Source: Microglena sp. YARC
Taxonomy: Eukaryota; Chlorophyta; Chlorophyceae; Chlamydomonadales; Chlamydomonadaceae
DNA length: 64,000 bases
NCBI GenBank assembly: GCA_022414725.1
Contig: CM039464.1
Span: forward strand, 61,384,963-61,448,962
Reading direction: 5' to 3'
Part shown: in pieces, positions 2,761 through 64,000 of the stretch
Numbering within the stretch: position 1 is the first letter of the stretch
Layout: the number at the start of each line of letters is the position of its first letter
Program-made: the position numbers and the translations under genes
The notes under the pieces: model-generated
Told to the model about the DNA's origin: nothing
What the model saw: only the letters and a program-made list of their open reading frames with translations
Database searches by the model: none

Positions 2761-4345
2761 TCGTTGCTATCGTCTCCTGTTGAGTGAGGGAGATGGGGGA
2801 GAGACCTCCACATGTCGGACACCCTCACCCTCACAGGCCACACCAACACACACCCCACACACACAAGGCGAGCACACACACACACCACTCCCACACACAC
2901 AGTGCGGCCACACACCATACCGGCTGCCAGAGCGAGCCGCGAGCACACCGCTGCTAATCATGCGTCATCCTGTTGAGAACCGAGGTAGATGGAGTAAAGA
3001 CCGTGGCCACAAGGTGTCACCCACAACTACACACACACCCCACCCAACCAGCAACACCGCTCTATCGTCATCCTGTTGAACCGAGGGGGATGGAGGAGAC
3101 CTAACACATGACATGTCACACCCACAACTACAATCCCACACCCCACAACTACACCCACACCAATACACCCCACAACCCACAACTACACCCACCCCAAACA
3201 CTACACCACACCCCAACTGCACCCACACCCACAACTACACCCACAACCCACACTACACCACTACCCACAACTACACCTACTCACATCCCACAACTACAAC
3301 CCACACCCACACCCACAACTAGCACCCACACCCACACCCACAACTACACCCACAAACCACACCCACATTCCCCACAACTCACCCCACCCACACCCTATAC
3401 AACTACAGCCGAGCCATCTGAACCCATACCCACAACTACACCCACACCACAACACGCCAACAACTACACCCAACCCACAACTGCACACATCCCACACCCA
3501 CAACTAACACACGCCTACACACACACCGCTGTTAATCGTCCATCGTGTTGAACAGATGGGAAGGGGTGATATCTATCTATTTTCACACACCCTACTACAC
3601 CCACACAGCCAACACACCCCACACACACCCACACACCCACCACACACACCCACCACCACATGTCCACAACCAACAACTACACCCCCCACCAACTACCCCC
3701 CCTCCCCCCCCCCAACACACACCACACAAGATGCACACAGTCGGCGATCGGGCTTGGTTAGGATACCACCAGACCCACCACAGGCACACACCACATGTCC
3801 ACCACAACTACCCCACCACAACTACCGCCCCACCACGACACAGGCCAACACACCCACACACAACACCACCAACATGTCACAACCACAACCTTACACCACC
3901 ACAACTACCACACACACACACACACACACACACACACAACACACACACCACATCACACACCACAACATGTCACACCACAACTACATCCCACCACAACTAC
4001 CCCCCCCACACACACACACACACACACACACCCACACACACCCACACCACCACCACATGTCCCAACCGACAACTACACTCACCACAACTACCACCGCCCC
4101 TCCCCCACACACACACACACCAAACACAAATCACACACACACCACACACACACCACACATGTCACCCACACTTAACACTCACCACAACTTACCAGCCCCG
4201 GCCCCCCAACACAACACACACACGCACACCATCCACACACACACCGCACACACACACGACAAACCACACCACACACACACACCATCGCTGTCACACCACA
4301 CCACTGCTTCATATCCAGTTTTGAACCGAGGGAGATGGGGTTAGA
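2761..4345 (-). repeat. CA-rich array with recurring splice-acceptor-like cores
   Basis: CACACA/CCACAACTACACC-type simple sequence is interrupted by a conserved core of about 40 bp near 2765-2805, 2965-3005, 3060-3100, 3530-3570 and 4305-4345. On the minus strand the better cores read ...CCTCGGTTCAACAG followed by GATGACGATAG, i.e. a pyrimidine-containing acceptor followed by an exon-like start encoding Asp-Asp-Asp. The 2765 copy continues as a short open frame. The likely interpretation is repeated copies of one intron/exon junction of a minus-strand gene; I cannot name the gene. Confidence 0.55.
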
Positions 4346-5430
4346 CCTATCCACATGCCACATCCACAACTACAATCCCACAACTACAAACACACAAGTG
4401 GATCTGCACACACACACACGCCACACCCGCCTCACACCAACACCAACCTCACACACACCATACAAACACCCAACCCTACCACACGCCGAGCCTACCCGCA
4501 CCCCACCGCTAGCCACCCCCAGCCCAACCCCCCCAACCTACCCACCCAGACCCCTTACCCACAACCCAAGCCCTACCCACACCAACCCTACCACACCCAA
4601 CCCTAACCAACACACCGCAACTACATAACACAACCACCACACCCTACATACCCCGACGCCACACCACCACACCCTAGAGGCTGGACATTACACCACACCA
4701 CACCACACCACAACCCAACCCTACATACACCACACCAGAAAACATACCAACATCACATACACCCACACCCTTTACATACACCACAAGCCACACCGCCCCT
4801 ACATACCCAACACTCCACACCACACCCACACCCGTACAATACACCCACCTACACCGACACCACACCTCAACACACAACCCAACACACCACAACCCTACGT
4901 ACCCCACACCAGGCACCACACCAACACCACACCACACCCTAAATCACTAACACCACACCACACAACACCCACCTTACCCGCACCGCAACCTAACATACAC
5001 CACAGCCATAAGATCCGCACCACACCTATCTCACACCCAAGCCCTACATTTATCCCAACACCACACCACACCACCACTACATACCGCCACGTCAAACCAC
5101 ATCCCAACCCTACCCATACCCAATCCCTCATACACCACAGCCCCAACCAACCCTACATATCACCCTCACCACAACCACCCAACCCTACACAACACACGCC
5201 AACCCTACACAACACACCAACCCTACCTACTACCCACAACCCAACCCTACACACCACACCCACCAACCCAACCCTTACACACCCAACCCTACCCACCATG
5301 GTCCCATGTAAACCACAATCGCTCCAGTCACCACACCCATAACCATCACACACCCACCTGGCTCCATCATTTACCGTCCATGCGACACCGACCAACCTCG
5401 CTCCAACACCACACCCATAATACCAATCCT
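4346..5430. repeat. C-rich array of CCAACCCTAC-type units
   Basis: Low-complexity C/A-rich sequence in which CCAACCCTACA and CACACCACACC words recur irregularly. Open frames on both strands are artefacts of composition. No gene is seen. Confidence 0.7.
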
Positions 5431-6170
5431 GTATGTCCACACCTCATCGCTCCATCCCACCCATTCGCTCCAATCGCTCCATCATCACCACACCCATCGC
5501 TCGCATACACACCCATCTGCGATCCATCACCAGCACCGCATCCATCAAACACACCCTCCCATCGCTCCATCATCGCTCCATCACCACACCATCGCTCATC
5601 AACACTGCCATCGCTCTGTCCATCACCACACCCATCGCTCCATCACACCCCATCGCTCCATCAACTCAACCACCCTCATCGCTCCATCACCACAACCCAT
5701 CGCTCCATCAACACCATCGCTCCACCCACCATCGCTCCATCACCACACCCATCGCTCCATCACCACACCCCATCGCTCCATCACACTACACCCATGCTCC
5801 AATCACCCATCACCACACCCAAACCCTCCCTATCCCACCAAACCCATACCACCATCACCACCACCGAGTCCATCGCTCCATCACCAACACCTATCGCTCC
5901 ATCACCACACCCAAACCCTACCCTATCCCACAAACCCATACCACCATCACCACACCCACTCGCTCCATCACCACACCAACCCTACCCTAAATCCCAACCA
6001 ACCACTACCACCATCACCCACACCCATCCGCTCCATCACCACACCACAACCACATACCCCACCTACCCATGGGCACCAACCAATCACCACACCGCATCGC
6101 TCCATCACGAACACACCAACCCACTCCCACCTACCCCATACCACCATCACCACAACCCATCGCTCCAACA
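5431..6170. repeat. Minisatellite with unit ATCGCTCCATCACCACACCC
   Basis: A unit of about 20 bp with variants of 11-22 bp is repeated dozens of times, degenerating towards 6170. It has no stop codons in one + frame because of its composition, not because it is a gene. Confidence 0.75.
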
Positions 6171-7152
6171 CCCACACACTCCCAACCTAGCCACAAGAAC
6201 ACCCCAACCCTACATACCCCACCCACCTGTCCCATGTCACACCTATCGCATTCCATCACCGAAATCTACCCACTCCCAGCCCAACCCACACCCAACCCTA
6301 CATACCCCACCAACCTGCCCCATGTCCTCATTGTCATCTGCCGAGGCCGGCGTTGTTTGGACCTAGAATTCGTTCATACTCTTGCATGGCTTACGTACTT
6401 CTTCTGTCAAGGTTGCCGTATCATGCCACCATACCTGTCCCCACCATCCCAAACCCATCGCTCCATCACCGACACCACACCACACCCTACCCACACCCAA
6501 CCCCACACACCCCACTCACCTGTCCCATGTCGTCATTATCATCTGCCGAGGCCGCATTGTTGGACCTAGATCGTTCATACTCTTGCATACCCCTACAATG
6601 TCCCCACACCCAACCCTGCATACCCCACCCACCTGTCCCATATCGTCATTATCATCTGCCGAGGCCGCATTGTTGGACCTCATACTCTTGCATGCCCCTA
6701 CAATGTCCCCACACCCAACCCCACACACCCCACCCACCTGTCCCATATCGTCATTATCATCTGCCGAGGCCGCATTGTTGGACCTCATACTCTTGCATGC
6801 CCCTACAATGTCCCCACACCCAACCCCACACACCCCACCCACCTGTCCCATATCGTCATTCATCATCTGCCGAGGCCGCATTGTTTGGACCTCAATACTC
6901 TTGCATGCCCCTACAATGTTTCCCCACACCCAACCCTACATGCCCCCACCTACCTGCCCCCCCATGTCAATTGTCATCTTGCCGAGCTGTGTTGTTGGAC
7001 CTAGATCGTTCATACTCTTGCATGCTTACATACTTCCCTCTGTCAAGGTTGCCTATCATGCCACCTACCTGTCCCACCATCACCACACCCATTGCTCCAT
7101 CACCACACCACACCACACCCTACCCACATCCAACCCCACAAACCCCACCTAC
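6171..7152 (-). repeat. Array of copies of the 3' half of the 7153-7260 exon
   Basis: A unit of about 110-120 bp is repeated roughly seven times. On the minus strand each better copy contains the sequence encoding Met-Gln-Glu-Tyr-Glu followed by Asn-Ala-Ala-Ser-Ala-Asp-Asp-Asn-Asp-Asp-Met-Gly-Gln, then a donor-like GTGGGTGG or GTAGGTGG. This is the second half of the adjacent exon plus its 5' splice site. Copies differ by small indels and substitutions. The array lies where the downstream intron of that exon would be. Confidence 0.75.
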
Positions 7153-63297: not shown

Positions 63298-63450
63298 CAT
63301 GATGATTTGGTTGTTGAGAACTGCATTCTTGTGGCCTGGCTCAATGGCAGGGTGTTGTGTACCCAGGGTGCTGTAGGCTACCACTTGTACCCCCTCCTTT
63401 CGACACAGGTTTAGGATGTCGGCATTGGGGTTGAGTGGATCCACGTTGAT
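63298..63450 (-). CDS. Aldo-keto reductase, penultimate exon
   Basis: 153 bp (51 codons, phase 0 at both ends) between the acceptor atatatgcag (63451 upward) and the donor GTAAGAGT. It encodes Ile-Asn-Val-Asp-Pro-Leu-Asn-Pro, then Leu-Cys-Arg-Lys-Glu-Gly-Val-Gln-Val-Val-Ala-Tyr-Ser-Thr-Leu-Gly, the AKR strand-7 motif (x-Ala-Tyr-Ser-x-Leu-Gly) that contacts the nicotinamide/pyrophosphate of NADP(H). Earlier exons, with the catalytic Tyr/Lys/Asp/His, lie beyond the right edge. Both ends of this exon are copied in the flanking introns. Confidence 0.9.
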
Positions 63451-63490
63451 CTGCATATATTCAAGCACGGACATGAAATATGTGCTTATA

Positions 63491-63692
63491 TAGGCTACCA
63501 GGATACTTCAAATGGCCAAATTGGCCAGCGCTTTAGCGCACTTGAAAACAAAAAAACTGCGCTTTGTAGTGCAAAAAGCGCTTGCAGCGCCCACAAGGGG
63601 TTGCAAAAAGCTGCGCTTAAAGCGCAGAGGGGGGCAAAAAGTCAGCGCTCAAAAGCGCAAAAGCGCGCACTTTGAATTACCCTGTAGGCTAC
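63491..63692. mobile_element. Intact hAT-like MITE (186 bp) with 8-bp TSD
   Basis: 63499-63684, flanked by taggctac at 63491-63498 and 63685-63692. The terminal inverted repeats are CAGGATACTTCAAA and TTTGAATTACCCTG. The interior is made of AGCGCTTTAGCGCAC and AAAAGCGC palindromic words. It is the full-length relative of the interrupted copy at 46376/59767 and shares ends with the 1548-bp element at 47164. Confidence 0.95.
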
Positions 63693-64000
63693 TGATCGCA
63701 CACCCATTCCTTTTACCGCAGTTTCAGGATGTCGGCATTGAGGTTGAGTGGATCCACATTGATCTGCAATTATTCAAAAGCGGATATGATATATATGCTT
63801 TTATAGGCTACTGATCGCACATCCATTCCTTTTACCGCAGTTTCAGGATGTCGGCATTGGGGTTGAGTGGATCCACATTGTTCTGCAATTATTCAAAAGC
63901 GGATATGATATATATGCTTATACATATGCCTATATATGCTACCACTTGCATATCTCTTTGTTATGACACTTTTTTATAATGTTCGCATTGGGGTGGGTCC
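63693..64000 (-). repeat. AKR intron: copies of the exon start with acceptors
   Basis: Two near-identical units of about 113 bp, and part of a third at the window edge. On the minus strand they carry ATAATTGCAG followed by ATC(A/G)ATGTGGATCCACTCAA and GCCGACATCCTGAAACTGCGGTAA. They repeat the first 13 codons of the 63298-63450 exon with an acceptor, then hit an in-frame TAA. Confidence 0.88.

Follow-up and report, generated by a model that had tools for sequence, protein, structure and literature searches.

Tandem copies of exon edges and their splice sites in introns of the green alga Microglena sp. YARC

Introduction

Repeats at exon-intron boundaries have precedents. Intron 7 of human factor VII starts with 37-bp repeats, and only the most upstream donor is used (PMC6627357). 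In a potato RdRp gene, a tandem duplication runs across an intron-exon boundary (PMC4974935). In Chlamydomonas reinhardtii and Volvox, tandem repeats, notably GT/AC, are enriched near intron-exon junctions (PMC3887541). Here we analyze a 64,000-bp stretch of the Microglena sp. YARC genome (the window; C3:61384963-61448962, from an assembly of 568 Mb in 2390 contigs). At three of its genes, namely uS11m (mitochondrial-type S11), a gene of the AKR family, and a gene at 6.2 to 8.8 kb, the edge of an exon and its splice site recur in tandem within the neighboring intron.

Results

Copied exon edges and splice sites at three genes

An earlier note on this DNA had described introns composed largely of tandem copies of neighboring exon edges at four loci. 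Our analysis bears out such copies, with their splice sites, at uS11m, at AKR, and at the 6.2- to 8.8-kb locus (Table 1). The repeated unit straddles the border between exon and intron, splice site included: copies of exon ends bring donors and copies of exon starts bring acceptors, as the note had stated, at uS11m, at AKR, and at the exon at 7153-7260. The fourth locus, at 18.3 to 20.6 kb, also has genuine copies but is not a separate gene. EukProt model P0121 links HAAEL|G to SIMGSC in phase, from the first to the second uS11m exon. The array at 18.3 to 19.7 kb therefore belongs to uS11m, as its first exon and the intron that follows, and the four loci become three genes. The note's description needs two corrections: the introns are also rich in repeats without any exon sequence, and the end of a coding sequence is copied too.

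The joined uS11m product, read on the minus strand from an ATG in the second exon, matches PF00411 (Ribosomal_S11) across the full profile. In relatives, for which the comparison used proteins, the second join is uninterrupted in all five sequences (P0122-P0126), for example at KNARK|SLPVAAEK. All four copies of the second exon's end retain an intact donor (4/4). Under a nearest-copy rule, the period on the donor side of uS11m was 50 bp in one measurement and 173 bp in another. The first exon chosen by P0121 is one of several similar copies, and the true exon may be another of them. This bears on the copy at 19597-19688, which is either an exception to the polarity or a sign that P0121 chose a copy; the polarity would be regular if the upstream copy is the true first exon. 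For the AKR gene, it is the C-terminal exon that gives the family, with PF00248 matching within 61938-62174.

Beyond its last exon, the uS11m coding-sequence end is itself copied. In addition to the copies in Table 1, a short piece lies at 12232, and some copies in 12232-13007 include the stop codon. The duplication process is thus not limited to splice junctions. At the coding-sequence end of the chaperonin gene L054, something similar seems to be present.

Within the second uS11m exon, the window at 15984-16514 and P0121 differ over an ∼18-residue stretch, as if by two compensating indels. The pattern suggests base errors, or that the model comes from another assembly or strain.

Recurrence beyond the window, with one polarity and one strand

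We searched the assembly with the chaperonin profile PF00118, which gave 64 matches; the 20 stretches taken from these made 17 regions once neighbors were joined. One match that was itself a copy was removed beforehand, and of the remaining 57 exon matches, 54 were used after three shorter than 120 bp had been dropped. Pieces of 60 bp from each exon were compared with its flanks within 1.5 kb at a bit score of at least 30.

Exon starts were copied upstream in 18/54 exons and downstream in none (0/54). Exon ends were copied downstream in 19/54 and upstream in none (0/54). For mid-exon 60-mers, 3/54 had upstream copies and 6/54 had downstream copies, and on the exons' own reverse strand all six classes gave 0/54. 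Against the flanks of other genes, starts matched upstream in 23/2828 comparisons and ends downstream in 19/2828 (<1%). The earlier note had proposed this kind of comparison on a genome-wide scale, exon ends against their own flanks with mismatched gene pairs as control, and had named a lack of enrichment beyond its own loci as the result that would speak against it; the chaperonin exons are enriched. Simple tandem duplication predicts both the strict polarity and the strand.

In a list of 89 junctions, 41 carried copies (19/43 donors and 22/46 acceptors), a frequency that may be overstated because the list was finished manually and edges with copies were entered first. Two hand-placed donors without GT were removed from it; the end of L045 carries copies. 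Among 21 introns placed by script, together with three junctions per side placed by hand in the window and with the AKR acceptor not counted, copies accompanied 9/24 donors and 10/24 acceptors.

Copies appeared in other families as well. Two of five proteasome exon matches had short (23- to 34-bp) copies of the match end downstream, and a third had a weaker (71%) downstream match. For HSP70, coordinates alone, in a table of 76 matches, revealed a minus-strand exon (profile positions 466-530, C3:11606017-11606211) with three extra matches to positions 465-496, spaced 147 bp apart and all upstream. Copies were looked for and not found at three cytosolic-type uS11 exon matches (L004, L005, and L008), at CCT-beta (L056), L057, and L052, and at the exon matches of L047 and L049. 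Exon-edge copying is therefore common and not universal, and with chaperonin, proteasome, and HSP70 genes it recurs in independent genes on several chromosomes, as the earlier note had expected.

CCT-beta (L056, C6:13962293-13963762) is intronless over the whole profile, whereas most of the other chaperonin genes found have several exons. Its product is 100% identical to a EukProt protein; among named species, the most similar is that of Chlamydomonas eustigma (87%), followed by other Chlamydomonadales, in agreement with a place in this order. One CCT gene has several partial matches in C2:59849000-59961500 (L046, L053, and L055), some of them degraded and all within ∼110 kb.

The copies drift as noncoding DNA

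We compared 134 copies with their exons by codon position, leaving out L055 as a degraded copy. Differences at positions 1, 2, and 3 were 0.080, 0.075, and 0.163. The rate at position 3 is about double, a 1:2 ratio that would be expected from freely drifting copies alongside an exon whose changes fall mostly on the third position. Assigning changes in 29 arrays (120 copies) separated the two contributions. Changes private to one copy fell evenly on the three positions (87, 86, and 95; P = 0.71), whereas changes private to the real exon were concentrated at the third (6, 14, and 43; P = 7e-9). Mixed patterns (43, 25, and 65) keep some excess at the third position, as would be expected of copies that left the changing exon at different times; taken alone, they and the pairwise differences among copies would suggest some constraint. 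Frame-breaking indels occurred in 31/134 copies, 45 of 52 indels were not multiples of three, and 30 single changes to stop were found among the copies. Whole-exon copies under coding constraint, as in tandem exon duplication, were not found.

The duplicated splice dinucleotides were intact in 48/63 donors and 54/66 acceptors, 102/129 in total. The neutral expectation from neighboring divergence is 0.81 for donors and 0.79 for acceptors. These decoy sites are neither disabled nor maintained by selection; they decay neutrally. Splicing must hence disregard them, and use of the exon-proximal site would be the simplest rule, as reported for the most upstream donor in intron 7 of human factor VII (PMC6627357). 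The four CCT-alpha splices that we placed, three by script and one by hand, are those of the organism's own model P0128.

Junctions are covered by repeats no more than intron interiors

For junction coverage we used 22 introns with borders set from profile continuity and GT-AG signals (21 placed by script; those of uS11m were set by hand). The coverage sets exclude two inferred introns that were implausible, and the interior average uses 20 introns. A local direct repeat spanned 17/44 junctions. The corresponding share of interior points was 0.40 as a mean over introns and 0.50 when all points were pooled; an initial pass over 21 introns gave the same result, with junctions not above interiors. 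At 30 bp into the intron, coverage was 0.32 from donors and 0.59 from acceptors. In a larger set of 87 junctions, coverage was 0.425 at the junction and 0.435 at 200 to 500 bp inside the intron (difference, -0.008; bootstrap over 18 genes, -0.095 to 0.091). The hand-completed list may favor copy-bearing junctions and so would lean toward a junction excess, yet none was seen. Exon bodies at 60 to 100 bp inside had a coverage of 0.197, compared to 0.435 for the intron interior. The earlier note had proposed slippage-type intron growth across junctions. Growth by tandem duplication is supported; the junction as a special target is not. It is likely, in our judgment, that duplication ignores splice junctions and that selection on the exon shapes which copies survive.

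Placement of the units is less even. In 41 junction-spanning arrays, the exon share of the unit reached at most 0.63 with a mean of 0.38, a nonuniform distribution (Kolmogorov-Smirnov [KS] test against uniform, P = 1.7e-6). In 34 arrays with 90- to 400-bp units, the intron part was never shorter than 50 bp. When a minimum of 50 bp of intron is required, break positions do not depart from uniform (KS, P = 0.21); the corresponding values are P = 0.07 at 40 bp, P = 0.0001 at 20 bp, and P = 0.02 at 60 bp. The 3′ end of an intron carries the branch point and pyrimidine tract needed for splicing, and at acceptors a requirement for at least 50 bp of intron readily fits the need to carry these along.

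Repeats are also unevenly spread on a larger scale. From the first to the last chaperonin exon detected in a region, local direct repeats covered 0.56 of the nonexon sequence, compared to 0.19 outside, and the inside density was higher in 11/11 regions with two or more exon matches. The DNA counted as outside may contain undetected exons and neighboring genes. In the window, coverage was low (0.02 to 0.09) at 22 to 26, 32 to 40, and 44 to 60 kb.

The 22 introns are rich in G and T near the donor and become C-rich toward the acceptor, with GC skew going from +0.24 in the first tenth to -0.41 in the last. We considered whether the complementary GT-rich 5′ and C-rich 3′ ends serve to pair with each other and rejected this: an intron's own ends (-64.6) pair no better than ends from different genes (-63.8), and two 5′ ends of different genes pair at -66.2.

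Positions of the copies and other features of the window

Coordinates of the exons and their copies are collected in Table 1. Elsewhere in the window, a large CTG-rich minisatellite with units of ∼115 to 120 bp occupies 28800-31000 and is not tied to any recognized exon. Local direct repeats cover 85% of 28 to 32 kb, and the long reading frames there are probably spurious. A leucine-rich repeat frame with near-identical internal repeats lies at 43448-44467. Coding pieces of a Copia-type long terminal repeat retrotransposon are spread over several frames of the minus strand at 50744-59023. They include RVT_2, an integrase core (below the cutoff), and gag-pre-integrase, together with a second gag-like frame with a zinc knuckle.

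Table 1. Source exons in the window and the copies of their edges
Feature	Position in window	Strand	Support or remark
First uS11m exon as in P0121 (MRPSVQ...HAAEL, then donor GTGAGT)	19439..19550	-	In-phase join to the exon that begins at 16522
Five decayed copies of the first uS11m exon's end (18352, 18601, 18839, 18975, 19285); four reach the donor region	18352..19360	-	
Sixth copy of the first uS11m exon's end, upstream of the exon used by P0121	19597-19688	-	
Second uS11m exon (mitochondrial-type S11)	15984..16522	-	PF00411 on the joined product
Last 99 bp of the second uS11m exon plus donor GTGAGG, in four tandem copies with units of ∼199 bp	15220..15909	-	91-94% identical
Copies of the last uS11m exon's first ∼56 bp plus acceptor (13329, 13943, 14099; partial at 13778)	13329..14154	-	
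Last uS11m exon, through the stop codon	13038..13256	-	Join conserved in relatives
Copies of the uS11m coding-sequence end past the stop codon (12676-12760, 12941-13007; short piece 12810-12843)	12676..13007	-	
Exon IYIRDLDTGKYVSMQEYERSRSSNAASADDNDDMGQ of the gene at 6.2 to 8.8 kb	7153..7260	-	No Pfam match
First ∼39 bp of the 7153-7260 exon plus acceptor, in ten upstream copies; the farthest partial	7313..8046	-	
Six copies of the 3′ part of the 7153-7260 exon plus donor, downstream	6320..7047	-	
Stretch read as the next upstream exon's end plus donor (8701-8785), with three copies (8331, 8465, 8587)	8331..8785	-	
AKR exon (INVDPLNPNADILNLCRKEGVQVVAYSTLG...QIIM), acceptor and donor	63299..63450	-	Exon alone has no Pfam match
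AKR exon start copied upstream (63682-63777, 63827-63896) and end copied downstream (62613-62721, 62784-62848; pieces at 62512 and 63158)	62512..63896	-	

Discussion

We consider it quite probable that three things together account for these arrays: tandem duplication blind to splice junctions, selection on coding sequence, and splicing at exon-proximal sites. Short tandem duplications, with units mostly of 90 to 220 bp, would be gained continually in and around genes, we infer by slippage or template switching. A unit lying wholly in an intron would yield an ordinary intron minisatellite, and one lying across a junction would carry some exon sequence into the intron, along with a splice site that looks functional. 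As the original exon and its exon-proximal splice site would be unharmed, selection would tolerate such a copy, whereas units entirely within coding sequence would mostly break the frame and be lost. The copies would then amplify and decay as noncoding DNA, and splicing would use the exon-proximal donor or acceptor, ignoring the decoys deeper in the intron.

Several observations weigh against this explanation. The ratio of nonsynonymous to synonymous differences between exon and copy is 1.19, compared to an expectation of 2.55 if one side alone drifted freely, and pairwise differences among copies (0.116, 0.089, and 0.143) still lean to the third codon position. We ascribe the first to the same mixture of drifting copies and a changing, constrained exon and the second to copies having left that changing exon at different times. 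Coverage just inside acceptors is somewhat over that of the interior, and units are seldom mainly exon. The 50-bp minimum of intron that makes break positions uniform was picked after the data had been seen, and it leaves the placement of units on the donor side without an explanation. Plain blind duplication does not predict denser repeats inside genes than outside; a duplication bias linked to transcription is a possible hypothesis. The sample consists mostly of one gene family, the chaperonins, plus the window, and exon-proximal site use is inferred from DNA rather than from RNA.

The view of the earlier note, that slippage targeted to junctions drives the growth or even birth of introns, is in our judgment unlikely. 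It would account for junctions lying near the middle of the unit (exon share of 0.3 to 0.6 in 28/41 arrays), for introns being more repeat-rich than their flanks, and for the high coverage 30 bp inside acceptors. However, junctions and intron interiors are equally covered, the uS11m coding-sequence end is copied past the stop codon in the same manner, and a need for ∼50 bp or more of intron to travel with the unit would explain the middle placement. That the copies are real, used exons, whether from tandem exon duplication or as alternative exons, seems very improbable, even though most of them retain a canonical splice dinucleotide and differ from one another with a mild excess at position 3. 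Changes private to copies show no codon constraint, frames are broken by indels and stops, and each copy contains one exon edge, not both. In addition, the uS11m proteins of relatives and the organism's own CCT-alpha model P0128 contain no repeated segments.

Introner elements are dispersed mobile copies tied to introns, and insertion of similar elements at splice junctions would likewise link repeated sequence to introns. We regard this as exceedingly improbable here, since each gene's unit comes from its own exon, with <1% of comparisons matching other genes' flanks. A search with one unit, that of uS11m, which skips common words, returned ten scored matches. The five that contained the exonic half were all at the uS11m locus; the other five were weaker (four on another chromosome and one nearby) and covered only the simple-sequence part (query positions 2-100 of 199). 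Dispersed near-identical copies in unrelated genes were not found with this unit or with the 54 exons. Inflation of tandem copies by long-read misassembly could be suspected from the use of a single assembly and from the base-level indel differences between the second uS11m exon and P0121. Yet copies are mostly 74 to 97% identical to the exon, with indels of their own and codon-blind private changes, and the strict polarity recurs across chromosomes, all of which makes an artifact highly improbable.

Returning to junction-blind duplication filtered by selection, one could extend it to an intron-focused, perhaps transcription-coupled duplication engine that has built much of the intron mass, with decoys at a large share of junctions and a spliceosome that is strictly exon proximal genome-wide. 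We find this extension doubtful at present, although possible.

The arrays offer dozens of natural tests, within one genome, of splice choice between near-identical sites that differ in position alone. They also point to a specific mutational path by which introns grow, and the comparison of copy and original exon supplies its own neutral control. A practical consequence is that they can break automatic gene models. Of four own EukProt models compared, P0121 extends four residues beyond a copied donor and then ends, P0128 stops at a copy-bearing junction, and P0130, at an exon end likewise bearing copies, is without ∼20 residues that P0128 and P0137 contain; the model of an intronless gene, P0001, is whole. 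Automatic gene models were probably misled by the copies here.

In the titles and abstract openings that we surveyed, with subscription literature mostly outside the search, copied exon edges were not described as a widespread feature. The elements are each known singly; within the searchable literature, the prevalence, the two-sidedness, and the codon-level evidence that the copies are noncoding appear new. The earlier note's view that the pattern fits no known kind was too strong, given the precedents of the potato RdRp duplication and factor VII intron 7. Introner elements share with the arrays a repeated sequence tied to introns, but they are dispersed, whereas the copies here are local. 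The repeats at intron ends in C. reinhardtii and Volvox are likewise from green algae, of the same order, and crowd intron ends; copied exon edges or duplicated splice sites are not mentioned in the accessible part of that report (PMC3887541). In the ATP2A1 and potato RdRp cases, the duplicated segment also spans a boundary and brings splice signals, but a new intron is made, whereas here arrays of copies enlarge existing introns (PMC4974935). Factor VII intron 7 shares the boundary tandem unit and the repeated donors, of which the most upstream alone is used there. That case concerns one locus and the donor side only (PMC6627357), whereas in Microglena the copies lie on both sides, in many genes, and at about one-third of the sampled exon edges.

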